Positions 1,090 through 52,365 of a stretch of 64,000 bases of DNA are shown piece by piece. The translations under genes were made by a program, and so were the position numbers. The DNA comes from an uncultured Clostridia bacterium. Its GTDB lineage: Bacteria; Bacillota; Clostridia; Christensenellales; Borkfalkiaceae. The number at the start of each line of letters is the position of its first letter. Positions within the stretch are counted from its first letter, which is position 1. The stretch lies in the NCBI GenBank assembly GCA_947632195.1, contig CANROE010000002.1, forward strand, positions 1 to 64,000, in the 5' to 3' direction. The notes beneath the pieces are model-generated. The model ran no database searches. It was not told the DNA's origin and was given only the letters and a program-made list of their open reading frames with translations.

Positions 1090-1102
1090 GCGAGGGAAAA
1101 AC

Positions 1103-2113: not shown

Positions 2114-2145
2114 AAAAATGTGGTTATAAAGTTTAGGAAAATACT

Positions 2146-3111: not shown

Positions 3112-3112
3112 C

Positions 3113-5048: not shown

Positions 5049-5085
5049 GCGGCGGGGAGCAAAAGCTCCCCGCCGCTGTGGTTTT
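5049..5085. terminator. Hairpin closing the AAA/surface-protein operon
   Basis: A perfect 12-bp stem (5049-5060 with 5065-5076) has an AAAA/TTTT loop, immediately beyond the stop codon of the leftward YDG-repeat gene. On the minus strand no long T run follows, so termination strength is uncertain. The 200 bases between here and the recombinase terminator show no gene. Confidence 0.5.
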
Positions 5086-8000
5086 ATTCAATCAGTTCGA
5101 GCGTTCCGGGCTTATAAATGATCTCATAGCATGCGGTGACGTCGTTGTGCCTTGCGTCGTAGACGGTACACTTTCCGATCTTATTTTCGGAGGTCCCGGG
5201 CACGTCCTGCCTGCCCGTGACGGTGACCTCTATGGTGTGTCCCGCAGCGAGAGAGCCGAAGGAGAGACGCCAGCCGGGCGCGGTGAGCGGAGTTCCGTCG
5301 TAAGACTTTTTGACCGAATCGGTCGCGATCTCGATATGGCGCTTCCGGATCGTGAGCGGGGTGCCAGAGAATTCGACCGTATAATAGGACTTCGGCAGCA
5401 CGGAGCCGTAACGCGAAACGCTGATGGGGAGCTGACGGATGAGCTCCATATCGAGGCTCCCGGGCGTTTGCAGGCTGCCCCGCAGCGTGAATCCCACCGT
5501 CAGATTGCCGAGGTTGTCCCCATCCTCGATGTACCAATCGTCCGCTCGATAGGAGAGCGGCGTGCCGTCGTACACTTTGCTCACGTCGAACAGCGTGATG
5601 ATCAGACGGTAGCGCATGAAGAGGACGCCGCTGTTTTCGATGGAGATACGGTAATTCGACGTGACTTCCCGCTCCATCTCGTCGAGGACCATGACGCTGC
5701 GGAACTCGTTTTTCTTGCTCCCCGCCTCGCGGATGATCGTTGCGCCGACAATATGAACGCTGTGCTTGTCTACGAAACGGTAGGGGCTCGTCTGCCCGTA
5801 GGTGAAGTAGGGATAGCTCTGCTCCTGCCCGTCATAGAACATGTCGGAATTGGATGCGGTGACGATCTCCACATGGCGCGGGGTGATCTCGATGGTGCCG
5901 TATTCGTACTCGATCGCATAATTGGAGGTAACGATCGTTTTGTTCTCGGAGAAGATATCGCAGGTGAAAATATTTTTCTCGCTGCCGACGTCGGTACGTT
6001 CGGTAAAGGTGGTGAGGAACTGGCGCTGGCCGTCGGCGATCTCCCCTTCCACGAGCTTGATCTCGGCAAAGTAGCTGCGCTTGGGTTCGCCGTCGTAGAC
6101 TGCGTTGACGTCGGGCGAGCTCAGTTTGATCTTCCGCTGCGTGATGGTGACCGACCCATATTCGTATGCGATCTCATAATTGCCCGTCTTATATCTTGCG
6201 TCGCCCTCCGCCGAGGGATCCTCGATGGAAACTTTGACGCGGTTTGTCCACACGCCGACGGTGATACGGTCGTCGGGCTTTAACGGATCGCCGTCCATTC
6301 CCGCAAATACGACCTGTTGCCCCTTCACCGTTCCCTTTTCGGACGTCACTTGGACGAGGGTCGGGACATGCGGTTTGCCGTCATACACAAAGGAGCCGCT
6401 ATCCGTCTTGACCGTGATGGGGCGGGGATAGACTTCGAGGTCGCCGCAGAATTCGGCGGCTTCGATCTCGTAATAGCGGGAGACGTCACGGCCGCTTGCG
6501 TCTGCAACGGTGAACAAGAGCCAATTTTTGACCTTCCCCACATCGGTGATGGAGACGGGTTCCCCCGTGAGGACGAGGCTGTGCCCCGCGAGCAGACTGT
6601 TCGGGTCGACGGCCTCGAATCCGTCCGTCTTGGTGTGCGGCTCGCCGTCGTATTCAAAGCGCGCGCTTGCCGTGCGCACCGAGAGCTTGCGCGGCACGAT
6701 GGAGAGGGTGCCGAAGTGCGTCTCTATCTCGTAATTGTCGGTCACGTCCCTCTCCGATTCCTCCTCGACGCACCATGCGGAAAAGGCGTTTTCGACGGGG
6801 CTCTGGTCGATTTCGGAAATGTACGCTTGCGACGCGTGTTGGAACATCGCCTTATGCCCTTCGACGAGGGGAAGGGAGCCTTCTTCGAGGAAGAAACAAT
6901 CGGCGTTGCGGGCAGAGTGCCGTTTGCCGTCATACTCCCACACCAGATCGGCCGAACGAAAGGCGACGGGGCGGGGAGAAATGAACAACCGTCCGTAGAA
7001 ATAGCTGATGTCGTAATATTTCGACATGTCGTAGCCTTCGCCCTCGCCGTTTCTGACGGTGACCGTAAAGCTGTTTTCTATGGGGGAGTCCTTGACGTCG
7101 GTGACGAAGGAGAGCGCCTCGGAAAAGACGATGCGGTCGGTCTCCGTCCCCCGCGTGACGAGCTCCATGCTCGTGGGGCTGAGCTCGATGTCCTCTTCGG
7201 TGCAGCCGTGCGGCTGCCCGTCATATTGCCATGTGCGGTCATGGGAGATCACGGTGATGGGGCGCGGCATTGTGAGGACGGTGCCGTATTCGTATGTAAT
7301 AAAATAGCAATCGGTCCTGACGTCCGATGTTTGTTCATTCCCGATCATGATCAGGACGCCGTTTTCCCTCGGGCCTCCGTCCGCTTCCAAGCAATCGTTA
7401 TAGCAAGGGCCGGTCCGGAAGATCCTCCAACTGTCCCCTTCCGCGAGCGCTTCCGTCTGCCCGGGATCGGAGCCCGCATAGCGCAAAATGCAATCGCTCT
7501 CCTGCGTCTTTATCTGAGGATCGCCGTCGTAGGTCCACTCGACAGTCGGCGTCGAGAGGACGATGGGACGGGGAATCACGGTGAGAGTGCCCGCCGTCAC
7601 GGAGGACGCGTAATTTTTCGTGACGTCCTCCCCGTCGCTGTCCAAGACGGTAACGTCGGGCTTGAACGTCGCCGACCCCACGGTGAGAATAGACTCCGTG
7701 CCCGAGATCTCTATGCTGTGCCCTGCGACGAGCCCTTGCACGTCGCTCCCTTCGGGCAGAGCGCCTCCCGCTTCGAGGGGCGTTCCGTCGTATTCCTTCT
7801 GGCGGTTGCCCACGGTGACGGAGAGCGGACGTTTCGTCACGCTGAGTTCGCCCGCGACGACGCGGACGGCGTAAAAATCGTTCCTCGTCGTCCCGTCGCC
7901 GATCACTTGCACTTGCGGGACGTTCTGCACCTTGCCTGCGTCGACGAGCTCGGTGGGAAATTCGAGTTCGAGCTCGTCGTCAAACGCCAAGCTACCCTCG

Positions 8001-8695
8001 GTGATCTCGTACTCCGAACAGGAGAGCGGCGTGCCGTCGTACACCTTTTCGGCATTCTTGACGGTGATGGTGAGCTTGCGGGGGGTGACGCGCACTTCGT
8101 CCTCCGTCACCGAGACAGAATAGCAATCGGTGACGTCCTCCTCCCCGCGAAGAATGCGGACGTCCTCCTGCACGGGCGTGATGTATGCCTTCCCGTAGGG
8201 GGAAGAAAAGACGCCCTCCCCTAAACGGTAAGTAAACTGCGTGCAGACGACGGTCTCCCCTTCGACGGGGACCGCTGCGGGGGCGGGGGTTTCCCCATAC
8301 ACCCAATCCTTTTTCACGCCGACTTTTATCGCGCGCGGAATGATACGGAAGAAGTGCGCCTCTCCCTTTTTCCCCGCGCCCTCGGACACGGCGCGCACCC
8401 AATAGCTGCCGATACGGCGGGGAACGTCCTCCGTCCATGCGCCCGAATTCTCGCTGCGGTATTCATACCGCACGTTTTGAAAAACGGCCTTTGCGCGGTA
8501 GGGGTTCTCCTCCCCGTAGACGATCTCGGGCGGGCACTCCGTGGCGTCCGAAACGATGCCCGCCACGCTCGTCATCGTGATGACAAAGGTAAGCGCGGCG
8601 ACAACGACTGCCAAAATGAGAAAACGGAAGTGCCAGAGCTTTAAGAGGAAATCTTCTACCCGTTGCATTTTGTTTTGATATTCCCGATAAAGCAT
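5084..8695 (-). CDS. Membrane-anchored YDG/MBG-repeat surface protein
   Basis: This is a 1203-residue type II membrane protein: a short cytoplasmic start, one transmembrane helix (about residues 25-46), then an extracellular chain of repeats. I count eleven YDG motifs at about residues 218, 300, 388, 490, 585, 682, 770, 867, 953, 1042 and 1132, each followed by a V-T-x-N-Y type motif and a G-T-L-x-V-x-P-R closing strand, as in MBG/YDG domains of bacterial adhesins and stalk proteins. The segment before residue 218 looks like a degenerate first repeat. There is no LPXTG motif. It is the last gene of the eight-gene leftward operon, six bases after the transglutaminase protein, which ends in the same domain type. 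A structural surface role is inferred. Confidence 0.85.
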   Translation of the reverse strand: MLYREYQNKMQRVEDFLLKLWHFRFLILAVVVAALTFVITMTSVAGIVSDATECPPEIVYGEENPYRAKAVFQNVRYEYRSENSGAWTEDVPRRIGSYWVRAVSEGAGKKGEAHFFRIIPRAIKVGVKKDWVYGETPAPAAVPVEGETVVCTQFTYRLGEGVFSSPYGKAYITPVQEDVRILRGEEDVTDCYSVSVTEDEVRVTPRKLTITVKNAEKVYDGTPLSCSEYEITEGSLAFDDELELEFPTELVDAGKVQNVPQVQVIGDGTTRNDFYAVRVVAGELSVTKRPLSVTVGNRQKEYDGTPLEAGGALPEGSDVQGLVAGHSIEISGTESILTVGSATFKPDVTVLDSDGEDVTKNYASSVTAGTLTVIPRPIVLSTPTVEWTYDGDPQIKTQESDCILRYAGSDPGQTEALAEGDSWRIFRTGPCYNDCLEADGGPRENGVLIMIGNEQTSDVRTDCYFITYEYGTVLTMPRPITVISHDRTWQYDGQPHGCTEEDIELSPTSMELVTRGTETDRIVFSEALSFVTDVKDSPIENSFTVTVRNGEGEGYDMSKYYDISYFYGRLFISPRPVAFRSADLVWEYDGKRHSARNADCFFLEEGSLPLVEGHKAMFQHASQAYISEIDQSPVENAFSAWCVEEESERDVTDNYEIETHFGTLSIVPRKLSVRTASARFEYDGEPHTKTDGFEAVDPNSLLAGHSLVLTGEPVSITDVGKVKNWLLFTVADASGRDVSRYYEIEAAEFCGDLEVYPRPITVKTDSGSFVYDGKPHVPTLVQVTSEKGTVKGQQVVFAGMDGDPLKPDDRITVGVWTNRVKVSIEDPSAEGDARYKTGNYEIAYEYGSVTITQRKIKLSSPDVNAVYDGEPKRSYFAEIKLVEGEIADGQRQFLTTFTERTDVGSEKNIFTCDIFSENKTIVTSNYAIEYEYGTIEITPRHVEIVTASNSDMFYDGQEQSYPYFTYGQTSPYRFVDKHSVHIVGATIIREAGSKKNEFRSVMVLDEMEREVTSNYRISIENSGVLFMRYRLIITLFDVSKVYDGTPLSYRADDWYIEDGDNLGNLTVGFTLRGSLQTPGSLDMELIRQLPISVSRYGSVLPKSYYTVEFSGTPLTIRKRHIEIATDSVKKSYDGTPLTAPGWRLSFGSLAAGHTIEVTVTGRQDVPGTSENKIGKCTVYDARHNDVTACYEIIYKPGTLELIE

Positions 8696-8701
8696 GCCTT
8701 G

Positions 8702-11700
8702 TTACCTCGTCATGGTGAGCGTACCGTCCACCGTTTCGATGATATAGTTCTTAGTGACCGATTCGCCGTCCTCGTTGAAGATCTCCACGGAGACGATACG
8801 GTTGGTCGCTCTGCCCGGCTTTGACAAACTTCCCTCGATCTTGACGACGAGATGATCCCTGTTCGCAGGTGTGCTGCTGTGCCAGCTGTCGCAGGTGAGC
8901 GTTTCGCCGTTGTACCGCCCCGTAACGCTGTCCGCCCATACCGTGATCCTCTTCGGCGTGATTGTCATCAGCCCGTAATCGCCGACGATCGCGTATTGCT
9001 CTGTGACGTCGGCGCCCTGCGCGTCGAGCACGCGCACCTCGGGAATGTTCGCCACCGTCCCGACGTCGCGGATCTGGATACGGAAACTTGCCCAGACATG
9101 GTGCCCGGGGGCGAGCGCCTCTTGCGCATAGGTACAGAGCTCGCTCCCCATATGATATTGTCCGTCGTATTCTCGGGTGAAACCCAGCGTCGTGATCAAA
9201 AGGACGCGCTTTTCACCGGCCGCCGCGCGATCGATCGCCGCTTTGCCCTCCTCTTTGGCGCTGTCCACGTCCTTGGGCTTGCTCGCCGCGTCGACGTTCT
9301 GCTTGGCCTGTTTCACCGCTTGTTCCGTCCTGTCTTTGAGCTCCTGTTTCTGTCCGTCGCTCAGATCGGTACGGCTGTCGATCTCCTCTTTCTTTTGCTC
9401 GCCGTAGTCGGCAAGTTCTTCTTTTGCGTTCTCTTTGTCCTTTTTGAAGTTGGCATCGTCGAGGAGACGGTCCAGGGCAGCCTTGCCGTCTTTGAGTCCT
9501 TGATCCGCCTGCTCGGGGGAGGACGCCTTGCCGATCTCCTCTTTGCCCGCCTTGACGGCGTCGTCGATCTCCTTTTCGAGCGCCTTTTGTTCCTCTTGGG
9601 TAAAGCGGCCGTTGCCGATCTCCTCTTTTTTGGAATCGCCGTAGTCTTCGAGTTTCTGTTTCGCGCTCTCTTTCCGCTTTTCGAGGTCCCCTTGGCTGCT
9701 CACGATCCCGTCTATGATGTCCTCGCTGCCGCTCAGCTCTTTGTCGATGTCCTCTTCGCTCGACGCATCGCCGATGTCCCGCTCGCCGTTTTCGACCGCT
9801 TTATCGACCTGCCCTTTCAGCTCTTCCTTCTGTTGCGGGCTCAGCGAACGGTCCGCCTCGATCTTATCCTTGGCCTCTTCGCCGTACTCTTCCAGCTCTT
9901 CTTTCGCCTCCTGTTTCTGCTTGGCAAGCTGCGCGTTCTTCACGGCCTCGTCGATCTGCTTTTTCCCTTGCTCGAACTGCTGTTCGACCGCCTCTTTGGA
10001 GGAGGCAGAGCCGATCCCTTCTTTGCCGTTTTTCACTTCCTCGTCGACGGCTTTTTTCGCCTCCTGTTTCTGCGTTTCGTCGAAACTGCCGTCGCGGTCG
10101 ATCTCCGCCTTCTTCTCTTCGCCGTAATCTTCGAGTTCTTCTTTGGCGTCCTCTTTCTTCTTGGAGAGTTCTGCCTCTTTCAGAACGTCGTCGACGGCCT
10201 TCTGAGCCTCGGCGAGCTTGTCGGCGATCTCTTCCCGCGTGGCCGCGTTCCCGATCCCCTCTTTGCCCGCTTCGACCGCAGAATCGATCTCCTCTTTGAT
10301 GAGCGGTTTGTCCTCTTCGTCAAAGCGGCTGTGGCGGTCGAAATCGACCTCCGCCTTTTTGCCCGAGCCGTAAGATTCGAGGCGGCTTTGGGCGTCCTCA
10401 CGGTCCTTGCCGAGGAGCGCGCTGTCCGTGATGTCCTCCATTTGCTCTTTGCTCTCCGACTGCGCGTTGCTCACTCTCTGGCCCGAGGTCGCCTTGTCGA
10501 TTTCCTCCTTGCCCTCTTCGGCAGCTCGGTCGATCGCGTTGTTGAGTTCCTCTTTTTCCGCGTCGGTAAAGCGGCCGTCGTTTGCAAGTTCCTCTTTCTT
10601 GCTCGCGGCGTATTCGTCGAGCTCCTTTTTGGCCTTCTCTTTCTGGCGGCTCAGATCGCCTTGGCTGTCGATGATCTCTTCCACGGCCTTTTGGGCGTTT
10701 TCGACCGCCTTGCGCACGTCCTCCGAAGATGCGGCGTCCTCGATCTCCCATTTGCCCGCTTTGACCGCAGAATCGATCTTTTCCTTGATGTCCTCCTTGA
10801 CCTTGCCGGAGAGGGATCTGTCCGCGTCGACCTCCGCTTTCTTTTGTTCGCCGTATGCGTCAAGTTCCGCCTTGGCCGCCCGCTTGTCTTTGTCGAAAGT
10901 CGCGTCGTTCACGGCTTTGTCGACCGCGCCTTCTGCTTTTGAAAGCTCTTCTTCCACGCTCTTGGCCGATCTTGCGCTCTCGATCCCGTCCAGCCCCTCT
11001 TTGACTGCGGAATCGACCTCGTTTTCCAGCCTCTGCTTCTCCCGTTCCGTGAAACGGCCGTCCTCGTTGATCTCTTCCTTCCTGCGTTCGCCGTATTCCG
11101 TGAGCTCTTTGCGGGCTTCTTCCTTTTGCTTTTCGAGTTTCTTCTCCTCGACGATGTCGTCGATGGCCTCTTTGCCGTCCTCGACCCCGTCTTTCACGCC
11201 GCCCGCCGTGTCCGCGTCGCCGATTTCGTCCTTTGCGTTTTCGGTCTTTTCGTCGATCGCGTCCTTGATATCTTTCTTTTCTTCCTCGGTGAAACGGTCG
11301 TCCTTGTCGATCTCCTCTTTCTTCTCTTCGCCGTAGTCTTTGAGCTCCTCTTTTGCGTTCTCCTTTTGAAGGTCAAGTTCGCCCTTGCTCTCGCCGATGT
11401 CGTCGATCAGGTCCTTGCTCTCTTTGAGCGCATTCCCCACGCCGCTCGACGAGGACGACCCTTCGATCTTCTCCTTGCCCGCCTCAACGGCGTCGTCGAT
11501 CTCGGCCTTGGCGCTCTGCTTTTGCGCCCTGGTCAAGCTGCCGTCGCGGTCGATCTCCCCTTTCTTCTTTTCGCCGTAATCTTCGAGCTCCTCTTTGGCG
11601 TACTTCTTTTGGAGATCGAGGTCGGAACCGTCGCCCTTGCTCTCCCCGAGCCCGTCGATCGTGCCCTTGCTCTCTTCAAGCGCGCTGCTGACGCCGTTTG

Positions 11701-14700
11701 ACGAGCCCGCGCCGTCGATCTTCTCTTTGCCCTTTTCGACGGCGTCGCCGATCTCCCCTTTCAACTCCTGCTTTTGCTCAAAGGAGAGATTTCCGTTGCG
11801 GTCAACTTCCTCTTTCTTCTGCTCACCGTAATGTTCGAGCTCTTCTTTGGCGCTCTCCTTGTCCTTGCCGAGACGGGCGCTGTCGACGATCCCGTCGACG
11901 ACCTTTTTACCGTCTTTGACTGCGCCGTCGACGTCGCTCGCCGTATCTGCGCTGCCGATGGCGTCCTTTCCGCCCTCGATCGCACCGTCGATCGCGTCTT
12001 TGATGGCCTGTTTCTCCTCGTCGGTGAAACGGTCGTCCTTGTCGATCTCGTTCTTCTTGCGCTCGCCGTAATATTCGAGCTCTTCTTTTGCGTCCTCTTT
12101 CAGAACGCCGTGATCGCCTTTGCTGCTCACGACGTCATCTATGATGTCCTTGCCGCTTTCGAGCGCGTCGTGAACGTCTCCCGACGAACCCGTCCCGCCG
12201 ATCTTATCCTTGCCCTCCTGGGTCGCTTGGTCGATCGCGTCCTTGATGCTCTGTTTTTGTTGATTGCTCAGGCGGTCGTCGCGGTCAACTTCCTCCTTTT
12301 TCTGCTCGCCGTAATCTTCGAGCTCTTCTTTGGCGTTTTCCTTTTCCTTTTCGAGTTTTTCGCGGTTTACGGCGTCGTTGATACCCTCTTTGCCTTTCGC
12401 AAGACTGCCCGAGACGTCGCCCGCCGTGCCCGCGCCGTCGATCTTATCCTTGCCCGCTTGGGTAGCTTGGTCGATGGCGTCCTTGATCCCCTGTTTCTCC
12501 TCCTCGGTGAAACGGCCGTCCGACTCGATCTCCTCTTTCTTCCGCTCGCCGTAATCGGTAAGTTTATCCTTGGCGTCTTGCTTTTGCCTGCCGAGATCGC
12601 CTCCGCTTTCCACCACGTCGTCGATCGCGTCCTTGCCGCTTTGCAGGGCGCCGTCAACGGCGCTCGGCGAACCCGCTCCGCCGATCTTATCCTTGCCCTC
12701 CCGGGTCGCTTGATCGATCGCGTCCTTGATGTCCTGTTTTTGCTGTTCGGTCAAGTTTTCGTCGCGGCTGACTTCCGACTTCTTGCGTTCGCCGTAATCT
12801 TCGAGTTCCTGTTTTGCGCTCTCTTTGCCCCGCTCCGCCTCGTCGCGGTTGAAGTCGTTCGCGCCGCCGCCGAAGTCGCTCTCGGCGCCGCCAGAACCGC
12901 TCGATCCGCCCGTGACTTCCACCTTCGCCCAGCCGAAACCGTCGAGATAGATCTCCACCCACGCATGCGCCTTGTCGGCGGTCACTTCCGTCTCCTTTTC
13001 CGCATCGGTGACTCCCACATAGCCGATGGTATAGCGCGCGGGAATGCCGAGCATGCGGAAGATGACCGTCGCCGCCGAGGCATAGTGCTGGCAGATCCCC
13101 TGCTTAAATTCCGTGAGGAAGGAATAGACGATGTCCTCCCTGCTGTCGAGCGTCCTGTCGTAGTCCTTTGAATAGGCCGCCGCGCCGCTGACATAGAGCG
13201 CGACTTTGCGGATGATGTCCGGATCGCTCGCATACAGCCCGTTTGCTTTGAGAATGGGGTCCATGAGTTTCCGCGTGCTCTCCTGCACGGTGAGATAGTG
13301 TTCTCTGACAAAGGCGCGGTAGTTCTCCTCATAGCTTGCGTACCGCATGACCGTGGGAGCGTTCCACGCGACGGAGAAGGCATAGTAGGGCACCGTATAA
13401 GCGCCGCTCGTGCTGCCGCCGTAAATGACGTCGCTGTCCTGGATGTCGTAGCTGCCGCCGTCTATGGAGAGATAGGAGGGCAGATAATACTGCGTTACGC
13501 CCTCGACCCTCGTCACGGTGAGTTTGTGGGAGACGAATCCGTTCTCCCCGAGCGCGATCCCCGAGAGATAATTCGCACAGTAGCGCCCCTGGATGAGTTC
13601 GCCGTATTCCTCCGCAGGCGTCCAGCTTTGCCCCGTATAGTCGCCGAAACTCTTATAGCGCAAATAGACGGTGCCGGATATATCCGAGGTGAGCCGCAAA
13701 ACGGGCGCGTTGCTGTCCGTACCGCCGCCGATCCCCCCGCCGTCGCCGAGGTTGCCGCCTCCGCCTTGACCGCCTTGGCCGCCCTGACCGCCCTGACCGC
13801 CCTGACCGCCCTGACCGCCCTGGCCGCCACCTTCGCCGCCCTGCACGCAACTCCAAACGGCATACAATACGGTATTGTAGGCGACGGTAAATTTGCTGCC
13901 CGCATTCTTGAAGTCGGCGAAGATCCCGAGGGAATTTTCGTCCACCAGATACACGCTTCCGTTCGCGTATCCGATCTCCGTCCAACCGGCGAGGCGGTAT
14001 TCGAGCCCGTCCACCGTGATCGTATATTTGCTCTCGCCGTTTTCGTCGAGCCCGGCGAGCGTGATTTCCGTCCAAATGAGGATATCCCGCACTTCTTCCG
14101 GCCAACCCTCGATCTCACTGCCGATCATGTGGAGGTAAGTGACGCTGTAACGGTTGTCTTTGAAGTCGGGAATGCCGTTTCGGTTGACGTCCGCCGCCCA
14201 TACCGCATAGAGCGTGATGGTGCGCTCTTCGTCCGCGTCGGCGGGGTCGATGAAAAATTGCGAGTCATAGATCGTTTCCTGCGGCTTCTCTTCGAGCGGC
14301 GCGTCATAGGGAGACTTCGACCAACCGAGGAAGGTCACCTCACTTTGCATGCTGATGAGGTGCGGAAGTCCGACCAAACAATTCGCACTTAGATATTCTG
14401 CCCTCTCGGGCATCTTTTCCGCAAGCGACGCGGGATCTTCATACACCAGACAATATTCCTCGGAATCGGGAATACCGTCCCTGTTGCGGTCCTCTACCCA
14501 TAGCGCATAGAGATCGATATTGTACCCATTGCTTGCGTGTTCGGGGAGAACAACATATTCACCGTCATACCGTTCTTCGATCTTGGCGGGATCGTCGATC
14601 ACCCCATAGGGGAAAGTCGTCCACCCCCAAAGCATGTAACAGCTGTCCTTCGCCTGCAACCAAAGGCCAGTGGGCAGCCATACCGACATGTACTGCTGTG

Positions 14701-17047: not shown

Positions 17048-17065
17048 GGCTTTTCCCCCGAGAAA

Positions 17066-18748: not shown

Positions 18749-20573
18749 CCCGCGAGCGTTCGCTCTCCTTCGGCACGTCTGCCTGCTCTGCCACGTCTGT
18801 CCGTTCTGTTGCGTTTACTTGATCTGTTGTATTTACTTGTTCTGTTGTTTCTGTTTGTTCTGTTGCGTCCGCCTGTTTTGCGGCGTCCGCAGAATCTTCC
18901 GCGTTTTCCGCGCGGTCTTCGGCTGCGGCGGACTTTTTCTTGCGCTGCGCGAGAATGGCCGAGATCGTCGCCTTCCACATCTCGCGGCGGATCCGCCTTC
19001 TCGCCTTGCGCCACTGCCCCCGGAAGAACCCCTGAAAGGCGGCGTATTGGTGTTCGAGTTCCGCGAATGCCTCCTGCGAGGAAAAATCGTCCTGCGGGGC
19101 GGTCAGACCGTGCTCGAAACGGAGGGCGTTGAGCCTGCCGTCCGCAAGCGCGCGCTTGTCCTCCGTCTCGGCGAGCTGCTTTTTGCACGTTCCGAGCTCC
19201 TCCTCCTTTTCCCGCATGGCGGCGCGGTGTGTTTCGTCGCGGGCGGTGAGTTCCTTGTAGAAGTTATCCTCGGCAGCGCGCATGGCGGCGCGGTGCTCGG
19301 CGCGCTCTGCGTCCCGCTCTCTGCCGAGCTCGTTCATACGCGCCCCCACCTCCGCAAGTTCCATGCCGTGGCGCTCGTTGAGCTTTTCGATCTCGATATG
19401 ATGTCCCGCGATCACTTCGTTGAGCGCGGCGACGTCGGCGTTGAGTTTCTCCACTTCGGCGCGGCGGACGCGCAGCTCGGCGCTGTCGTCTTCGAGGAAC
19501 TTGTTCCGCTGTTCAAGCAGGAGCATATACTCCTCTTCGCCGCCCCCGCCGTCCGTGATCCGCTTTTTGAGCGCCTTGATCCGTTCGAGATTCCGCTCTT
19601 CCTCTTCCTGTCTGCGGCGCTTTTCCTCTCTTTCGTATTCCTCCGCGAGCGCGTCCTCCATGCCCAGCCCGTGTTCGTAGGCGAGAAAGGACGAGAGAAT
19701 CACCGTTTCGGAGAGTTCGTCCGCAATTATATCCGAAAAAGGCGCGAATTCCCGCTCCTCCCGCTCTATGGTATAGCCGTCCTTGCGGTATGCCGAAAGG
19801 AATTCATAGAGCTTTACGGTTTCTTTGAAGTTTTTGTCCATGCGCAGGACGTTCGTCTTGGTGATGGGCGGTTTGAGTTTATCCGCCTTCGCCACCTCGA
19901 TCATGAGCGGAGTGCGCAGATAATAGTAGACCGAACGCTGCAAGAGGTCGATGCGGTCGATCACGGGTTTCATGGGATTGTGTTCGAGGAGATATTTGTC
20001 GTCCTTGCGCTCCTCGTCGAGGCTGAGATGAAACACGAGCCTCTCTTTGTTGAAATTGACCGTCTTGTCGAGCCGCAGGGCGCCGATGTAGGTGTTGGTG
20101 AGTTCGAGCAGCTTGTTGTACCGCAGGGAGACGAAGTCCCGCAGATCGCACAGGAGCATATACAGGAAACGGTTCTCATACACCGTGTAATCGTTGAGCC
20201 GCTCCACGGTATAGAGGCGGTCGGGCACAATGTCCTTATCTTCCTCCACCCGCGTGATATAATTGCTGTGCCGCGCGAGGTGCGTCACCGATTCCTTGGA
20301 GACGTGCTTGACTTTTTCGATCTGTTCCGTCTCCCCGTTGGAGAGAATAAACTGCCGCTCCTCGTCGATCGCCTTGCCGATAAAGGGCAGCCCCGCCTCG
20401 ATTGCCTCGATCCAATCTTCGTCGATCGTGCAATTCATGCGGGTGACGGTCAGCCTGTCGTTTTCGGCGTCCGCCTTTTTGATCGCGTCCCGCCGCAGCG
20501 TGCTCTCGCGGTGGGCGAGCGTCAGTTTGCGGTATTCTTTGAGCGCGCGGTATAAAAGTTCTGTCTGCGTCAT
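18723..20573 (-). CDS. DUF2357/McrC-like coiled-coil partner of the AAA ATPases
   Basis: The 616-residue protein has an N-terminal globular part (about 1-300). Its YTVYENRFLYMLL stretch and the later LQRSVYYYLR and NVLRMDKNFKE segments resemble the DUF2357 region of McrC-type partners; this is a tentative match. A long charged coiled coil (about 320-500) follows, then a basic RKARRRIRREMWK patch and a low-complexity tail of TEQ, TTD and ATE-like units (about 550-616). I see no PD-(D/E)XK nuclease motif where McrC would have one. It lies between the two McrB-like ATPase genes, 14 bases after the first and overlapping the second, so direct interaction is likely. The GGGGGAAG ribosome site supports the start. 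Confidence 0.6.
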   Translation of the reverse strand: MTQTELLYRALKEYRKLTLAHRESTLRRDAIKKADAENDRLTVTRMNCTIDEDWIEAIEAGLPFIGKAIDEERQFILSNGETEQIEKVKHVSKESVTHLARHSNYITRVEEDKDIVPDRLYTVERLNDYTVYENRFLYMLLCDLRDFVSLRYNKLLELTNTYIGALRLDKTVNFNKERLVFHLSLDEERKDDKYLLEHNPMKPVIDRIDLLQRSVYYYLRTPLMIEVAKADKLKPPITKTNVLRMDKNFKETVKLYEFLSAYRKDGYTIEREEREFAPFSDIIADELSETVILSSFLAYEHGLGMEDALAEEYEREEKRRRQEEEERNLERIKALKKRITDGGGGEEEYMLLLEQRNKFLEDDSAELRVRRAEVEKLNADVAALNEVIAGHHIEIEKLNERHGMELAEVGARMNELGRERDAERAEHRAAMRAAEDNFYKELTARDETHRAAMREKEEELGTCKKQLAETEDKRALADGRLNALRFEHGLTAPQDDFSSQEAFAELEHQYAAFQGFFRGQWRKARRRIRREMWKATISAILAQRKKKSAAAEDRAENAEDSADAAKQADATEQTETTEQVNTTDQVNATERTDVAEQADVPKESERSRDESDGNEE

Positions 20574-20587
20574 CTGCTCTTCCCCCG

Positions 20588-21916
20588 TCAGGCGTTATTG
20601 GCAAGTGTGCGGACATATTCCTTGCTGATACTCATCTTATCCGCACCGAACAGCTCGTCGAGGAATTCGCACACCTCCTCGGCCATGCTCCGCACATAGA
20701 CGGTGTTCTGCGTTTTGAGTTTGCGCAACACTTTCTTGGTGATGATGTCGTCGAGCGCGTCCAGCTCGTCGCCGCCGCAGCGGACATAGACGGGGATAAA
20801 TGCCCTGATCTGTTTCATGATACGGTTGCCGAAGGTGATGTGGAAAGTCTTGACGAGATAGGTATCCAGACGGGCGAGCTTTTCGAGGGTATCCGACGAA
20901 ATTTCATACTCGCTCTGCGCTGCCGAAACGAGCTGGACGAAATCTTCGGCGGAAACGCGCACGGTGCGGCTCTGGCCGACATGGAAAGGATCGCTCTTCT
21001 TGTCGAGGTCGAGCACCATCGCACGGTCATAGACCTTGTCGGAGATCGCAAACGTCGAGTCGTCGTTGTTCGCCGTCCCGATAAACCACATGTTCTCGGG
21101 AAGTTTGATCCTCCCCTCTTTCAATAACTTCGGGTCGCTCTCCCAATGGTCGGACACTACTTCGAGCATCCTCGCCTCGGGATCGGGGATCTCCAAAAGA
21201 GACAGAAATTCCGCAAAATAGTACTCCACCCGCGCGATGTTCATCTCGTCGAGGATAGTGATGTAGATGTCGCGGCGGTAATTCGCCTCGTACATCTTCT
21301 GCAACAGCAGCGTCTCGTTGAACCGCTTGGTGAATTCGTTGTAGTACCCCAAAAGGTCCGTCCGCTCCTTCCACATCGGCTGGACGGGAATGACCGTCGA
21401 GGGGTTGTCGAGGAACTGTCCGAAGGCATAGGCAAGGGACGTCTTGCCCGTGCCCGACATGCCCTGCAAAATGAGGATCTTCGACACCGCCATGCCCGCA
21501 ACGAACTTGCGGATGTCCCCGATGTCGTAATACAGCCCCAGCTTGTTCGCCGCAAAGTTGCGGAATTCGTCGCACAGCTCGGCAAGCGTGACGGTATCGA
21601 ACCGCTGCATCTCCTGTACGGCGTAGCGCTCGTCGAGCTCATTGAGCATGCTGAACCGCTTGATGCCGGGGTCGGCCTTTTCCTTTGGTTTTTCCTGCGC
21701 GGCGGCGGCCTGTTTGCGGCGGGCGCGCAGATGTTTGACCGTCTTGGTGAAACGGCGCTCTTTCACGATGATCGAAACGATGAGCAAAATGATGATCGCC
21801 ACGATGAGCACGATATAGATGATGATCGCGATCGGCGTGGTCAGGCTTTCCCACAATCCCTTCACGAAGTTGTTTACGTCGTCGAAAACCGCAAGTGTAT
21901 TTACAAACTGTTTCAT
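20588..21916 (-). CDS. Membrane-anchored McrB-like AAA+ ATPase (copy 1)
   Basis: The 442-residue protein has one N-terminal transmembrane helix (about residues 28-50), a short basic linker and a McrB-type AAA+ domain: Walker A GMSGTGKTS near residue 152, Walker B ILDEMN near 222, FIGTANNDD and YDRAMVL after it, and a helical C-terminal lid with GNRIMKQIR and CGGDELDALDDI. From LAELCDEF to DRAMVL the protein is identical to the second ATPase, while both flanks differ. The start overlaps the stop of the GH3/pseudo-AAA gene by four bases (ATGA), and GAGGAAG lies just before it. Two intact copies plus a dead third copy in one operon suggest a mixed oligomer, which is inference. Confidence 0.85.
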   Translation of the reverse strand: MKQFVNTLAVFDDVNNFVKGLWESLTTPIAIIIYIVLIVAIIILLIVSIIVKERRFTKTVKHLRARRKQAAAAQEKPKEKADPGIKRFSMLNELDERYAVQEMQRFDTVTLAELCDEFRNFAANKLGLYYDIGDIRKFVAGMAVSKILILQGMSGTGKTSLAYAFGQFLDNPSTVIPVQPMWKERTDLLGYYNEFTKRFNETLLLQKMYEANYRRDIYITILDEMNIARVEYYFAEFLSLLEIPDPEARMLEVVSDHWESDPKLLKEGRIKLPENMWFIGTANNDDSTFAISDKVYDRAMVLDLDKKSDPFHVGQSRTVRVSAEDFVQLVSAAQSEYEISSDTLEKLARLDTYLVKTFHITFGNRIMKQIRAFIPVYVRCGGDELDALDDIITKKVLRKLKTQNTVYVRSMAEEVCEFLDELFGADKMSISKEYVRTLANNA

Positions 21917-24900
21917 ACTTCCTCTTCCCCTTCTCTCTTGATCAGCCTCAGCATTCTTTCGCAGCGCGGCACGTTGCCTTCGCCGAAGATCTTTTCCATG
22001 ACGGACGGCAGTTTCTCATCCTTCCCGCTCTGCCACAACCCGTTGATACGGACGAGCAGTTTCGCGGCGACCGCGCTGTCGAGCGCGTCTGCGGGAATGC
22101 CGCCGCAGGAGAGATACACTGCGGTGTAATTCTCGATCGCGAGCCATACGCGGTTCCCGATCCGATAGGGCGTGCCCGCGTCCACCGCACTTTCGAGACG
22201 GTCCACCTTCTTCCAGAGGGGCTCCTCGATCTCGCAGGTGAGCTTGGCGCGGCGGTTGAGTTCGGTAAATTGATGATACCCGAACGGGCTTGGCAGACGC
22301 TTTTCCTCGTGCGGGGCGACAACTTTCAATTCGGGGATCAAAAAGGAGGAGACGTCCGCGATGTCCCCGGGGAGAGAGGACGCATCCTGCCCCTCGGCGA
22401 GAATGAGCACAAAGCGGAGGTTGGGCGGGATCGCCACCTTTCCCCTGCCGTAGCCCTCGGGGTCGAACCTTCCCGTGCGCGGGTCTTTGAGCTGCTGCAC
22501 CACAGGCGAGAAATATCCGCCGAGCGCCGACAGGTCGACATGGCTCAGAACGGCGAAATGAAGGTAGGGTCTCATCTCGTTCGCTGACAGCAGCGCGCGG
22601 TAGAAATTGCTCTTTTCGCGCACCCCGTGTTTCCCCTCTTTATAGAAGAGGTCCTCCGTCTCGCGGTAGCCCTCCGCAGCGTCCGTCTGGAAGGCGGTGC
22701 CGAAATATTCGCAGAGCATGCCCGCAAGGGACAGGAGCTGTTTGACCCGCCCGCGCAGGACGATACAGCGCGTGGACGCGATCGCGGCCATGAGCGCGCG
22801 CACCGAATCCTTGGAGAGGGCAAGCCCGCAGTCCTCGGTATAGGCGGAGAATTCTTCGCACGCCCTTTCAAAGGTGAACGATTCGTCGAAGTAGTCCTCT
22901 TCCTCCCCTATGGCGGCGTGCACTTCCTCCTCTTCCTTCTCTTCGAGTTCCTTCAAAAAATAGCTTTCGAGCGCGTCGTTGCCCGCCGTATCCGCGCCCC
23001 GGAATTTCTCGCTCGCGGCGGGAAGGCTTTCGACTGCACCCTTGCTCCGCGTGGCGCGCTCGCCGATAAGGGCGATCACCGCCAGAACGAGGAACAGATT
23101 GACGGCAAACATTCCTCCGCCGTAACCCGCAAGATCGGGCACGGCGACGTGCGCCGCGATCAATAAAACGTCCGCCAGAATGGCGACCGCGAGCAGGATC
23201 CACCCGCCGAGCCGCACCGCGCGGTGTTCTTTGCGGTTGCGCAGAGCGCGTGCGCGCGCCTCTTTCAGCGTATAGCCCCGATACATCAGATTGGATTCGC
23301 TCTGCAAGTAGTCGGAGAGCTGCTCCTGCGTCTGCGGGCGCTCCTCTCCGTTGACGGAGAATAGCCCTTTGAGGCGTACGTCGCTCACCGACGAGCCGAT
23401 GTACACGGTGAAGAGCCCCCCTTCCGTTTGGGAGGTCTGCGTCTCTTCGTTGTAATAGGAAAACAGCGTTTCGGGGAGAGCGATCTCGATGACGCGGCTC
23501 TCGTCCGGCCCGAGCGTCACCCGCTCAAAGGCGATGAGTTCCTTTTTCGGGCGCACGCCGCTCTTGCCGGCGTAGACTTGCACCGTCTCCGTGCCCGCAT
23601 ACGCGCCGCAATTCGTGAGCGTAAAACGGACGCCGACCTCGTTGACTTCGAGCGCGGAATAGGAGAACGCCGTATAGCTGAGCCCATGCCCGAAGGGATA
23701 GCGCGGCGGATTGCCCGCCGTATCGTATCTGCGGTAGCCGACGAATTCCCCCACTTTGTTCCGCCCCGCGTCCTTGTAATTTTTGAGGGCGAGGAAGAGC
23801 GCGTCCGTATTGTCGTAATAGCTGCGGGTCAGTTTCCCCGAAGGGTTCCGTTTCCCCGTTAAGATCTCTATCAGAACGTCGTGGGCGGGCGTCCCCCCTG
23901 CGGGGACGAGCAACACGGCGTTGACTTCTTTGTCAAAGTCCATTTCGACGGGATAATCGCCCGAGAGCACGGCAACGATCTTCTTTCCCGTGCGGCGGAG
24001 GGCGTCGATGAGCGCGATCTGGCTCGCGGGCAGCGCAACGCTTTTGAGGGCGGGAATGCCCCGCTCCCTGTCCGCGCCCTGTCCGAGGAAGAGCAAAATG
24101 ACGTCCGCATCCTCCGCGATCCGTACCGCCTCGGGAATGAGCTCTTCGCTCTGCTCCCGCGAAAGGTCGTATCCGTCCGCCTGCCCCGCGTACCCGAGGT
24201 CGTAATCGAGCCGCGCGATCCGCGAAAAACGCACGGCAAAGCTGTCTTCGCCCTCGGCGGCAAGCGCGCCGATCACCGCGACGCGGGTGTTTTGCGCAAT
24301 GGGCAGCACGCCGTCGTTTTTCATGAGCACGGTGCTCTCTTCGGCCGCGCGCCTCACCGTCTCTTCGGACAGTTCTCTTGCCGCCGCCTTCTTTGCGGCG
24401 ATCCTGTAAGCAAAATCAATGACGCGGTCCACGCCTTCGTCGATCGCCTCTTCGGGGAGCGCCGTTCCCCGCTTGACCGCCGCGTCGAGCTCTTCCTGCG
24501 TCGCGCCCCCCTCTTCGATGAGGCGGACAAGACGGTGGTACCTGCCGACTGCGGTATCGAGCGGCAACACCGCGCCGCCCAAACAGACGTTGCCTTTGAG
24601 CAGCGAGCCCATGTCCATATCGTGCGGGACGTCCTCGCAGAGGAGGAAACCGTCCTCCTTCATGGCGTTGCGGACGGTGCGGCGGTTGACGTCCGAATAG
24701 TCCCCCGCAAGGCGGGCAAGAGAGCAGAGATAGGCATCCGGACCCTCCCCTTCCGCCGCTGCGGCAAAGGGGCTCTCGTAAAATTTGCGTATGACGGCCG
24801 CGCTCTCCTTGACGTCAAGATACTCGGCGTCCTCGCCCGAGACGGAGCGGCGGGCAAGACAGCTCCCCACGCCCGCGCTGCGGATCCCTTCCAGACAGGC

Positions 24901-25248
24901 CTTCCCCAGAGCGCCGCTCACAAACGGGTCCTCGGAGAGGCGGAGGGCATAGGGCGTTATTCCGCTTTTGAGGTCGGGAGACAGCACGAGATTGACCCCC
25001 CTTCCGCTCGCTGCCGACGACACCGCGCCGGCAACTTCGCCAAAGAGCGCGGGATCCCAGCTCCGCGCAAGTTCAAAAAAGGAGGGATAGTGCGAGCCTT
25101 CGCCGTTGAGCTCTTCGAGCGAGGCGAGCACGACGGCGGGGACCCCCGCACGGTCGATCTCGGCGTCGGAGAGGCTCTTGATGTCGGTGAGAAGGGCCAA
25201 TTTCTGCCTCAGATTGAGTTTTGCTATGATCTCGGGATATTTCAACAT
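21913..25248 (-). CDS. Fusion: degenerate GH3 glycosidase, membrane region and inactive AAA domain
   Basis: The first 640 or so residues of this 1111-residue protein follow the family 3 glycoside hydrolase plan: a shortened barrel, the alpha/beta domain starting at ESTVLMKNDGVLPI, and a fibronectin-like domain after YPFGHGLSYT. The usual Lys-His substrate pair is replaced (SCLARRSV) and the SDW nucleophile motif reads CEDV, so activity is doubtful. Two transmembrane helices follow (about 684-703 and 712-730). The C-terminal part (from about 789) aligns with the two neighbouring ATPases, including GNRVWLAIENY and a CGG-x-x-x-DALD motif, but Walker A is GRVKQLLSL and Walker B is VLSHVD, so it cannot be a normal ATPase. 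I start at 25248, behind AGAAAGGA and overlapping the previous gene by seven bases. Confidence 0.8.
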   Translation of the reverse strand: MLKYPEIIAKLNLRQKLALLTDIKSLSDAEIDRAGVPAVVLASLEELNGEGSHYPSFFELARSWDPALFGEVAGAVSSAASGRGVNLVLSPDLKSGITPYALRLSEDPFVSGALGKACLEGIRSAGVGSCLARRSVSGEDAEYLDVKESAAVIRKFYESPFAAAAEGEGPDAYLCSLARLAGDYSDVNRRTVRNAMKEDGFLLCEDVPHDMDMGSLLKGNVCLGGAVLPLDTAVGRYHRLVRLIEEGGATQEELDAAVKRGTALPEEAIDEGVDRVIDFAYRIAAKKAAARELSEETVRRAAEESTVLMKNDGVLPIAQNTRVAVIGALAAEGEDSFAVRFSRIARLDYDLGYAGQADGYDLSREQSEELIPEAVRIAEDADVILLFLGQGADRERGIPALKSVALPASQIALIDALRRTGKKIVAVLSGDYPVEMDFDKEVNAVLLVPAGGTPAHDVLIEILTGKRNPSGKLTRSYYDNTDALFLALKNYKDAGRNKVGEFVGYRRYDTAGNPPRYPFGHGLSYTAFSYSALEVNEVGVRFTLTNCGAYAGTETVQVYAGKSGVRPKKELIAFERVTLGPDESRVIEIALPETLFSYYNEETQTSQTEGGLFTVYIGSSVSDVRLKGLFSVNGEERPQTQEQLSDYLQSESNLMYRGYTLKEARARALRNRKEHRAVRLGGWILLAVAILADVLLIAAHVAVPDLAGYGGGMFAVNLFLVLAVIALIGERATRSKGAVESLPAASEKFRGADTAGNDALESYFLKELEEKEEEEVHAAIGEEEDYFDESFTFERACEEFSAYTEDCGLALSKDSVRALMAAIASTRCIVLRGRVKQLLSLAGMLCEYFGTAFQTDAAEGYRETEDLFYKEGKHGVREKSNFYRALLSANEMRPYLHFAVLSHVDLSALGGYFSPVVQQLKDPRTGRFDPEGYGRGKVAIPPNLRFVLILAEGQDASSLPGDIADVSSFLIPELKVVAPHEEKRLPSPFGYHQFTELNRRAKLTCEIEEPLWKKVDRLESAVDAGTPYRIGNRVWLAIENYTAVYLSCGGIPADALDSAVAAKLLVRINGLWQSGKDEKLPSVMEKIFGEGNVPRCERMLRLIKREGEEEV

Positions 25249-25832
25249 GTCCTTTCTACCTCCACTGTCGCAGCGCTTTCCGCAGCGTCTTCTTCCTCCT
25301 CCCTCATGCCGAGAAAGCGGAATGCAGACAGCGTGCCGATCGCGGCGCAGAGCGCAAACGTCACCGCCAAGAGGATCACGGTGAGCCGCTTCGTCCCCGA
25401 GACCGCCACACACCGCTTTCCGCCCGTGCGGCGGATGAGCGCCTCGCGGTCGGGTTCCTCCTCGGGCGCGTACCGCACCCTGATCCCGCGCTTTCCGACC
25501 TCATAGACGTAATCATGCGCGCGGACGGAGCGTATTTCCACACGGACGTCCGCACAAAAACTTTCGATGGGGATCTTTTCATACGGTCCGAATTCTTCGC
25601 CCGGCTGCACGGGCGGACCGTGATAGACGTATTCCTTGCTCCCGATGACGTTCCCGTCCTCGGTGAGGCGGTATATCTCCATGCGGAAGGAGGTGATCAC
25701 CTCTTTGCCGCCGTTGACGAAACGGAGTAGCAGAAAACGGTCGTTGCCCTCGTTTCCGATCAAAAACTGCTTGACGGAGAGGAAACTGCTGAGCTGCCTG
25801 TGCGCATAATTGCCCTTGCTTACGACGCGCAT
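25242..25832 (-). CDS. Small tail-anchored membrane protein of the AAA operon
   Basis: I do not recognise the family of this 196-residue protein. Residues 1-140 look beta-rich (FLLLRFVNGG, VITSFRMEIYRL, SKEYVYHGP) and may form a sandwich domain. A single strong transmembrane helix lies near 150-170 and a short acidic tail follows. There is no signal peptide, so the beta-rich part is probably cytoplasmic and could contact the ATPases. The start has a strong GGAGGAGG site, one base after the stop of the preceding gene, and the end overlaps the GH3/AAA fusion. The tight coupling argues that it is a component of the same complex. Confidence 0.65.
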   Translation of the reverse strand: MRVVSKGNYAHRQLSSFLSVKQFLIGNEGNDRFLLLRFVNGGKEVITSFRMEIYRLTEDGNVIGSKEYVYHGPPVQPGEEFGPYEKIPIESFCADVRVEIRSVRAHDYVYEVGKRGIRVRYAPEEEPDREALIRRTGGKRCVAVSGTKRLTVILLAVTFALCAAIGTLSAFRFLGMREEEEDAAESAATVEVERTC

Positions 25833-25833
25833 G

Positions 25834-26886
25834 TCATTTGTCCTCCTCCGTGATCTTTTCGGGAGCGTCCGCGTTTTCGGGCGCAGTCACTTGCGCATTA
25901 TCTTGCGCGTTTTTCGGCGCGGTCTCCCGCGCATTGTCTTGCGCGTTCTTCGGCGCGTTTTTCGGCGCATTTTTCCGCAATGTGCTCTTGACAGCCCCGG
26001 CCGCCTGCGAAAAAAGCAGGCGCACTTTTATAGCCGCTCCCCGAAATTTGCGCTTTACGGACAGGGCAACTTTGCCCGTCAGAAGGCTCGCAAAAAAGTT
26101 GCGCACGCGGTAGTAGAGATTGCCGATCGCAAAGCGTGCCTTTCCGACGGCCCGCAGCTGTCCGAGCCGCCGCAGCGGCCGCCGTTCGCGCAGATAGGCG
26201 AGCAGTTTTTTTGCGCCGAACACAAGGAAAACCGCAACGGCCTGTACCGCAGCGGCAAAAAAGACGGAACCCGTCAAAAAGGAAGCGGCTCCCGAGGCAA
26301 AATAGAAATCTCCGTCCGCAATGAGGTGGGAAAAGGACAGCTCGCAGAGCAGTGACTCTATGGCTACCGCCGCCGTCAAAAAGAGCACGAGCGGAAGGGA
26401 AAGCAGCAGCTGCGCTTTCCATGCGCGCGCGACGGCGCGGCTTTCGCCGTTGACGTTGCGAAGGGCGGGCGAGACAAAGGCCGTGTCCTTGGGGAGCGCA
26501 ATCCGTTTCCCGATCCCGTTTTGGGGAAGTTCTTTGACGGAGATCAGAGAGATCGCTCTCCCGCAGCCGTCATAGGCATACAGGTCGTATTCCGCGCAGA
26601 TGACTTCGTCCGACCATTTTCCGACGAACTGCACCCCTTCCTGCGAGCGCGCAAGGCAGTATTGACGGAGCGCGCTGCGATAGGCGGGGGCGGGTTCGCA
26701 GACGACGGCGATCCCATTGGGCGTATTGAGTTTGCGGATCCCCCTGTCGCGGCAGACGTAGCCTGCGGTGCGGGCAAGGAGAACGAGGCGCGGCAAAACG
26801 ACCGCAACGGCAGTTGCGGTCAAAAGTGTGCCGATGATGAAGAAAAAAGTCCAAAACATTGGTATGCCGGCGTGAGCCGCCCCCAC
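25834..26886 (-). CDS. Multi-pass membrane protein, first gene of the AAA operon
   Basis: This protein of about 350 residues has a transmembrane helix at its start (WTFFFIIGTLL), a soluble segment to about residue 165, then two further hydrophobic stretches (about 170-190 and 205-230) and a basic amphipathic region. The last 45 residues are a low-complexity tail of KNAP, QDNA and ETAP-like units ending EKITEEDK. I cannot name a family. The frame can begin with GTG at 26886 or with ATG at 26859; the promoter start near 26910 fits either, and neither has an ideal ribosome site. Being first in the operon and membrane-embedded, it may be the platform for the ATPase complex (inference). Confidence 0.6.
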   Translation of the reverse strand: MGAAHAGIPMFWTFFFIIGTLLTATAVAVVLPRLVLLARTAGYVCRDRGIRKLNTPNGIAVVCEPAPAYRSALRQYCLARSQEGVQFVGKWSDEVICAEYDLYAYDGCGRAISLISVKELPQNGIGKRIALPKDTAFVSPALRNVNGESRAVARAWKAQLLLSLPLVLFLTAAVAIESLLCELSFSHLIADGDFYFASGAASFLTGSVFFAAAVQAVAVFLVFGAKKLLAYLRERRPLRRLGQLRAVGKARFAIGNLYYRVRNFFASLLTGKVALSVKRKFRGAAIKVRLLFSQAAGAVKSTLRKNAPKNAPKNAQDNARETAPKNAQDNAQVTAPENADAPEKITEEDK

Positions 26887-26916: not shown

Positions 26917-26946
26917 ATTATAAAGAAACAGACCCCTTCCCGTCAA
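26917..26946 (-). promoter_or_regulatory. Sigma-A promoter of the eight-gene AAA/surface-protein operon
   Basis: On the minus strand TTGACG (26941-26946) and a perfect TATAAT (26917-26922) are 18 bases apart. Transcription would start near 26910, about 25-50 bases before the first gene. I see no further strong promoter within the next 21.8 kb of tightly packed genes. Confidence 0.8.
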
Positions 26947-30240: not shown

Positions 30241-30249
30241 ATCTCCTCC

Positions 30250-44930: not shown

Positions 44931-44933
44931 AAT

Positions 44934-45540: not shown

Positions 45541-45563
45541 GACAAGATAAACTCGTGCCCGCC

Positions 45564-52281: not shown

Positions 52282-52310
52282 TTTACTTGCCTTTTTCTAA
52301 CAGTTATGAT
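52282..52310 (+). promoter_or_regulatory. Probable promoter of the 1631-residue lipoprotein
   Basis: TTTACT (52282-52287) and TATGAT (52305-52310) are 17 bases apart, about 55 bases before the ATG. Confidence 0.5.
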
Positions 52311-52365
52311 AATTTATAAATACACAAAATTATACTGGAAACATCCTATCGTACGGAGGTATTTT

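Follow-up and report, generated by a model that had tools for sequence, protein, structure and literature searches.

A McrBC-like gene set lacking a recognisable nuclease and paired with membrane-anchored surface proteins in Clostridia

What would two McrB-like ATPases, relatives of the motor of type IV restriction, be doing in an operon that also encodes very large surface proteins? Such an operon lies in a 64,000-nucleotide stretch of DNA from an uncultured Clostridia bacterium (GenBank assembly GCA_947632195.1, contig CANROE010000002.1, positions 1 to 64,000; hereafter the window). As an earlier sequence-only reading of the window had described, eight genes run leftward on the minus strand between 26886 and 5084, neighbours overlapping slightly or lying no more than 18 bases apart: g1 and g2, encoding membrane proteins, the GH3/AAA gene g3, the McrB-like g4 (AAA-a), the DUF2357-like g5, the McrB-like g6 (AAA-b), and g7 and g8, encoding the surface proteins. 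Membrane segments are predicted in every part except g5. No nuclease family, whether PD-(D/E)xK, the tandem nucleases or HEPN RNase of CoCoNuT systems or any other, was matched in the eight proteins (g7 being scanned by Pfam only). The earlier reading had proposed an envelope assembly or remodelling machine. The link to the envelope is well supported, by association and by protein anatomy, whereas the action on the surface proteins is what we infer: a membrane machine of McrBC origin would assemble, position or remodel stalks anchored at their N-termini, a proposal whose chances we regard as evenly balanced. It draws on conserved gene order, the absence of a recognisable nuclease, predicted transmembrane (TM) segments, a dead AAA domain, the pairing with surface proteins and the homogenisation of two AAA modules.

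The association was followed through relatives of g5. Taking loci of both types described below together, and the genome of the window with them, relatives are present in 25 of 101 genomes, 91 of 396 genomes of the order and 19 of 391 of the class; a profile of the window-type g5 matched in none of the 397 other genomes of a phylum sample. Genomic contexts were fetched for part of the relatives found, giving a table of 107 loci (26 loci, the window and 80 more). Two McrB-like AAA genes flank g5 in 39 of these. YDG-type proteins are encoded downstream in 37 of the 39 dual-AAA loci, and 16 also or instead match transglutaminase; the two loci without surface proteins (G309 and G419) both end about 3 kb after g5 at contig edges. 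A GH3-AAA gene is carried by 29 of the 39, a signal-peptidase-like gene within 4 kb by none, and a possible SipW-type signal, by motif only, by one. Among the other 68 loci neither YDG nor transglutaminase proteins were found; 60 contain a signal-peptidase-like gene, and the count rises to 61 when SipW-type exported proteins are included. Seven loci are left over: a truncated window-type contig (G022), five loci with a long McrB (767-991 aa) and one locus without an AAA call (G439). At G095 the peptidase scores above the TIGR02228 cut-off and matches the SipW model with an E value of 2.3e-27 but under that model's cut-off, and the exported protein beside it scores narrowly below the cut-off of the SipW-dependent signal model. 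Both locus types are present within one genome in four cases (G005, G278, G379 and G774). The sequence-only reading was to be abandoned if homologues always sat with McrC nucleases; instead, the single-AAA relatives lie mostly beside signal-peptidase-like genes.

A scan of one genome per species, covering 84,980 species, returned 208 relatives, of which 80 were kept. Titles of the records with relatives include Clostridia, Gallimonas, Borkfalkia, Oscillospiraceae, Anaeroplasma, Acholeplasmatales and 'Bacillales', and the strain Anaerocaecibacter muris CLA-AA-M11 carries the system. In 55 of the 80 named loci the sequence extends beyond g5 by over 1.5 kb on the upstream and 4 kb on the downstream side; all 55 have a surface gene, and 52 have both AAA genes as called by script (all but L228, L231 and L263). 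When 103 dual-AAA loci were reduced to 80 non-redundant ones by identical g5 stretches, surface genes were present in 70; each of the other 10 stops no more than 3.2 kb from g5. The pairing of membrane-anchored McrB-like motors with surface proteins, first noticed in the window, extends far past it. In three loci (L170, L172 and L174, in genomes G635, G808 and G791) the system adjoins the ribosomal protein L17 gene, in two of them also RpoA, which suggests vertical inheritance there. Three further loci (L238, L243 and L261) come from records titled Anaeroplasmataceae or Acholeplasmatales. Anaeroplasma and Acholeplasmatales are wall-less, and if these titles are taken at face value, carriage there would rule out a role confined to the cell wall.

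The motor proteins resemble McrB in several respects. Compared with the sequences of solved structures, g4 gave three matches with an E value of 0.1 or better, all of them McrB. Window-type AAA proteins have the Walker A and B motifs and the Nx(x)D signature of McrB-type AAA; the signature is GTANNDD in 70 of 74 AAA-a and 64 of 76 AAA-b proteins (GTVNNDD in nine further AAA-b), where NNDD may be read as NxxD or as NxD with a D after it. Hydropathy predicts mostly one or two TM segments in AAA-a and two or three in AAA-b. A different motor is found in MoxR-DUF58-TgpA operons, which combine a MoxR (AAA_3) ATPase, a vWA/DUF58 protein and a transglutaminase. The window operon is like these in placing an AAA+ ATPase beside a membrane-anchored transglutaminase, with similarity of g7 to TgpA_N (E value 1.7e-10), but its ATPases are AAA_5 and McrB-like, transglutaminase is optional, and Pfam found no vWA protein among the eight. 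A MoxR-type motor was rejected on the AAA_5 assignment and the missing vWA partner.

The earlier reading had called g5 a DUF2357-like coiled-coil protein. By Pfam this assignment stays under the cut-off (E value 0.0019; 17.9 bits against 23.3), but profile-profile comparison bears it out: hhalign aligned a profile of 63 g5 relatives to a McrC-like set at 99.0%, with an E value of 2.3e-18 over 269 columns. That set comprised five proteins, four from long-McrB loci with zinc ribbons or DUF2357 matches and one from G356, a single one of which passes the DUF2357 cut-off (23.7 against 23.3). Judged by sequence profile, the g5 domain is McrC-like. The structure model (mean pLDDT, predicted local distance difference test, 81.3) contains a long helix, residues 346-487, in keeping with a C-terminal coiled coil, and in 76 of 80 loci g5 has no TM segment by hydropathy.

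How does this gene set relate to described McrBC-like systems? With McrBC type IV restriction and CoCoNuT, as presented in the relevant passages of Bell et al. 2024 (PMC11090510), it shares a McrB AAA protein and a DUF2357 partner; unlike them, it has no nuclease that we could find, and it has TM segments where they carry an N-terminal specificity domain. The earlier statement that the operon fits neither known kind of system was too strong, since the same paper already names CoCoPALM, briefly described as a branch of McrBC-like systems with a membrane McrB bearing an NxD signature, a coiled-coil McrC and signal peptidase/pilus genes. Among the papers listed by a literature search, the name is used in that paper and its preprint, the others being unrelated by title; the word transglutaminase is absent from the paper's full text. 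Literature searches on PDC-M26, on YDG/MBG/DUF1542 and on McrBC with membrane-anchored surface operons gave no papers, and one on McrB with SipW, TasA or camelysin yielded nothing useful. As far as the brief description goes, the single-AAA loci fit CoCoPALM by their sequence features. The window type resembles CoCoPALM in its McrB-like AAA proteins with an NxD-type signature and TM segments, its coiled-coil DUF2357 McrC and its link to surface or export. Two further features are given for CoCoPALM. One is an AAA domain fused to an FtsB-like TM segment plus coiled coil; the window AAA proteins have predicted TM segments, any likeness of which to FtsB would be hypothetical. The other, a coiled coil in the McrC homologue, is seen in the g5 model. 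Unlike the outline given for CoCoPALM, the window type has no signal-peptidase-like gene in its 39 loci, two active AAA genes plus a dead AAA/GH3 protein, YDG/AgI-II/transglutaminase stalks and homogenised AAA modules. A tree of AAA domains was made by a quick method from 132 chosen rows (118 different), with five long-McrB rows as its root. In it the 70 rows of the window type all fall into one clade (Shimodaira-Hasegawa-like approximate likelihood ratio test, SH-aLRT, 100) nested among 57 single-AAA rows; nearest to the window type are loci fitting the CoCoPALM description. On this evidence the window system appears to be a sister of the CoCoPALM-like loci and, lacking a signal-peptidase-like gene, not one of them.

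A further comparison is offered by TasA/SipW fibre assembly in Bacillus (PMC13082335, PMC10151520 and PMC9674648). It is likewise a sortase-independent way of building surface fibres, and its SipW-like peptidase is the partner also found in the sister loci; the abstracts mention no AAA motor, and the cargo is unlike the stalks of the window.

The surface proteins are predicted to be anchored at the N-terminus, with a TM segment near it in all 70 first and 62 of 64 second proteins. LPXTG motifs were absent from 105 complete surface proteins (67 first and 38 second, with 3 first and 26 second proteins cut off by the locus end left out), and on this count sortase-anchored wall proteins were rejected. 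Pfam was run on 48 of the 51 eligible first proteins (complete and shorter than 1300 aa) and 25 of the 26 listed second proteins. The AgI/II C2 adhesin domain matched in 19 of the 48 and 19 of the 25, and transglutaminase in 15 and 7, respectively. The sequence-only reading had summed up the pair in the window as transglutaminase, DUF1542 and YDG proteins; we place the transglutaminase cores and DUF1542 stretches in g7, and YDG-type motifs number two in g7 and eleven in g8. All three transglutaminase cores of g7 retain the catalytic Cys and His, with E, D and E, read from the sequence, as the third residue.

In the short tail of g8-type proteins two tyrosines are kept in at least 90% of the rows with a letter there, a thin hint of docking. 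They would also suit quality control, in which the ring pulls misassembled or unwanted surface proteins from the membrane and the co-encoded surface proteins are its main clients. Machines that recognise clients are often built with a dead AAA domain and a coiled-coil adaptor, which counts for extraction as well. However, the eight proteins include no protease, and McrB rings are not, to our knowledge, threading unfoldases. We consider extraction a rather improbable reading.

The sequence-only reading recognised two McrB-like ATPases but overlooked the near-identity of their AAA cores. The cores of g4 and g6 differ at 13 of 561 bases, 12 of them third codon positions, and their flanks diverge widely. 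Pairs were compared in 74 loci with a Walker-A-bearing AAA on each side of g5, and core amino-acid identity reached at least 95% in 36. In the 32 loci used to locate the module boundaries, the block of identity begins about 75 codons ahead of Walker A and runs almost to the stop codon; DNA identity averages about 99% over the whole module and about 30% outside it. Homogenisation is limited to the core in G000, G040 and L194. In all 31 homogenised loci entering the own-pair test (the cut-off locus L259 being omitted), the two modules of a genome are closer to each other than to those of any other genome, while the N-terminal parts of the two proteins agree at only 14-59%. This is the pattern expected of recurrent gene conversion, and points to it. 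Recurrent conversion would in turn perhaps reflect membership of one ring with one McrC-like partner, the simplest reading being a single mixed AAA-a/AAA-b ring that serves one g5.

Other origins of the near-identical pairs were considered. Recent whole-gene duplication was rejected on the dissimilar N-termini, a rejection tempered by the poor conservation of N-termini between genomes (means of 0.24 for a-a, 0.27 for b-b and 0.21 for a-b in the 31 loci). N-terminal orthology appears clear for near relatives only, as in L252 and L255 (0.93 between genomes versus 0.15-0.18 within). The best a-a match from another genome exceeded the own a-b match in 26 of the 31 loci, a comparison favoured by picking the best of 30. 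Assembly collapse was rejected as the sole cause, the pair in G256 being resolved with 1-2% base differences and that of the window with the 13 differences given above. Some 100% identities in metagenome-assembled genomes (MAGs) may be inflated.

The other operon products are g3 and the small membrane proteins g1 and g2. For g3, the GTG start at 25413 given by the earlier reading was replaced by ATG at 25248, the likeliest start, which overlaps the end of g2. Walker A and Walker B are lost in all 61 rows of g3-type AAA. In GH3 enzymes the Asp of an SDW motif acts as nucleophile, and a Lys-His pair is also catalytic. Phmmer aligns an Asp of the window protein to the SDW Asp, but only 23 of 61 relatives have Asp in this column. 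Where 7ms2 has its Lys-His pair, the window protein has Ala-Arg, and K and H are not among the commonest letters there in relatives. Because of these columns the GH3 domain is probably inactive, and we consider an active GH3 enzyme unlikely. A secreted GH3 was rejected: no signal peptide is seen by eye, and the TM hairpin makes a cytosolic domain most likely. An AAA gene without GH3 stands in the place of g3 in L235, L238, L243 and L270.

The g2 model (mean pLDDT 87.0) gave nothing useful in a fold search (best E value 6.4e-3). The g2 open reading frame (ORF) exceeds 900 aa in 5 of the 34 loci with g2, and ORFs of more than 1000 aa, resembling BspA-type leucine-rich repeat (LRR) proteins by eye and putatively located outside, occupy its place in G392, G256 and G434. 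These long proteins, together with the beta-sandwich and TM segment of g2, would be compatible with an outside-in sensor, in which the stalks, or the long outer part of some g2 proteins, bind ligands of a host or neighbour and signal to the AAA ring. No kinase, cyclase or transcription factor is present among the eight proteins, however, and we think a sensor very unlikely.

In the reading that we prefer, the machine would work on the cell surface and not on nucleic acid. The differently membrane-anchored g4 and g6 probably come together in a single mixed ring at the inner side of the membrane. There g5 would dock and trigger hydrolysis, its coiled coil taking the place of the McrC nuclease, and g3, with its dead AAA and probably inactive GH3 domain, may act together with g1 and g2 as scaffold or adaptor. 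At the membrane the ring would assemble, position or remodel the adhesin-like g7 and g8, and transglutaminase domains, where present, may crosslink the stalks outside. The mixed ring, the docking, the contact with surface proteins and the surface outcome are the steps that we infer. More tentatively, and at somewhat less than an even chance, we suggest a distinct class: two differently anchored motors, their module kept identical by recurrent gene conversion, would form a mixed McrB-type ring that, with a nuclease-free McrC-like activator and a dead AAA/GH3 protein, drives the assembly of adhesin stalks or their passage across the membrane, also in lineages titled Anaeroplasma and Acholeplasmatales.

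Several observations weigh against this reading. The named records are for the most part MAGs. A Foldseek search with the g5 model returned no McrC (best E value 0.17), and a McrC fold of g5 is unproven. By searches with the window proteins, which give lower bounds, the GH3-dead-AAA protein occurs in 59 of the 80 non-redundant loci, g1 in 37 and g2 in 34, which leaves their status as core parts putative. Transglutaminase is not universal either, its motif being present in only 30 of 80 loci. Conservation over residues 1-25 of g8-type proteins (0.47) is close to that of the next 25 (0.45) and of residues 51-110 (0.49). Most of the window's genus has diverged AAA pairs, the cores being 73-88% identical in the other members compared, except G040 (100%). 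Finally, both AAA proteins match PADLOC PDC-M26A, a candidate defence family, with E values of 4.7e-49 and 9.4e-47.

This last match raises the alternative of phage defence: the surface proteins would detect adsorption or prevent it, and a membrane McrB ring would respond without a nuclease, by gating, depolarising or walling off the entry site. The relation to McrBC and the patchy presence of g5 relatives would agree with it, as would the genes that border the window operon on its left. These lie at 1067-4837 on the plus strand and encode a YhcG/DUF1016 nuclease, a RES-domain protein and a large serine recombinase; with its lower G+C content (about 42-50%), the stretch, which adjoins the operon, is likely to be a mobile element or one concerned with defence. 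However, PDC-M26A also matches the AAA protein of a signal-peptidase-type locus and those of long-McrB loci, and therefore marks the AAA family and not defence. Nor was a known effector of another kind seen in the eight proteins (g7 again by Pfam only). Among 104 flanking proteins from 51 loci (up to two ORFs per side, 150-900 aa), 20 PADLOC families matched at an E value of 1e-5, each a single protein, and the 25 commonest Pfam families were mostly housekeeping; the position beside the L17 gene in three genomes also speaks against defence. We judge defence unlikely and retain the envelope machine as the preferred reading.

The features of the operon are collected in Table 1. The single promoter that the sequence-only reading assigned to all eight genes has a counterpart in the promoter-like site upstream of g1, which would drive the operon. 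Promoter-like minus-strand sites within the operon score only 9 of 12 and all lie inside coding sequence, so that no strong internal promoter, which would have split the genes, was seen. An Rfam scan gave no matches.

Table 1. Coordinates of the operon genes, homogenised cores and predicted signals in the window
Feature	Position (strand)	Description	Basis
Promoter	26917..26946 (-)	Predicted sigma-70-type promoter, TTGACG-18-TATAAT	Pattern scan, 11/12 matches
g1	25834..26886 (-)	Membrane protein, soluble domain between TM segments	No Pfam match; TM scan, homologues aligned
g2	25242..25832 (-)	Beta-sandwich domain, probably cytosolic, and C-terminal TM	No Pfam match
g3	21913..25248 (-)	Probably inactive GH3 domain, TM hairpin, dead AAA	GH3_C, E 7e-30
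g4 (AAA-a)	20588..21916 (-)	One N-terminal TM and McrB-like AAA	AAA_5, E 2.8e-6
Homogenised AAA core in g4	21011..21571 (-)	187 identical residues versus g6 copy	
g5 (C)	18723..20573 (-)	McrC-like DUF2357 core and long coiled coil; no TM	
g6 (AAA-b)	17066..18748 (-)	Multi-TM N-terminus (three TM scored) and McrB-like AAA	AAA_5, E 7.6e-6
Homogenised AAA core in g6	17489..18049 (-)		
g7	8702..17047 (-)	TM anchor at the N-terminus; three transglutaminase cores; 14 DUF1542 stretches; MBG/YDG-type repeats at the C-terminus	Pfam
g8	5084..8695 (-)	Short N-terminal tail, TM anchor, YDG/MBG repeats	YDG, E 1.1e-11
Terminator-like hairpin	5049..5076 (-)	After last stop at 5084	12 pairs, 11 G-C

Elsewhere in the window, a BspA-type LRR protein is encoded near the operon (31125-32618); LRR proteins make up 3 of the 104 flanking proteins in other genomes, and the long ORFs of G392, G256 and G434 that look LRR-like by eye are situated just upstream. 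Genes for YpeB and a SleB-type cell wall hydrolase at 28252-31005 suggest that the host may be a spore former. A 265-base tandem repeat of 2.3 copies (98% matches) lies at 44931-45544. At 52306-57261 a 1651-aa ORF has weak matches to SpaA/Ig-like surface domains and is overlapped on the opposite strand by an open frame of 1496 aa.

Together, these observations in gut Clostridia and some of their relatives suggest that an engine known from defence has found a second use in the handling of surface proteins. If the proposed reading is right, a type IV restriction motor would have become a machine of the envelope, its nuclease replaced by a coiled coil and its cargo being adhesin-like stalks. The system would then provide a second branch for the sketched CoCoPALM idea, testable in a named strain, Anaerocaecibacter muris CLA-AA-M11. 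The homogenised AAA pair, with identical motor domains on different anchors, would also offer an unusual natural clue to the composition of the ring.

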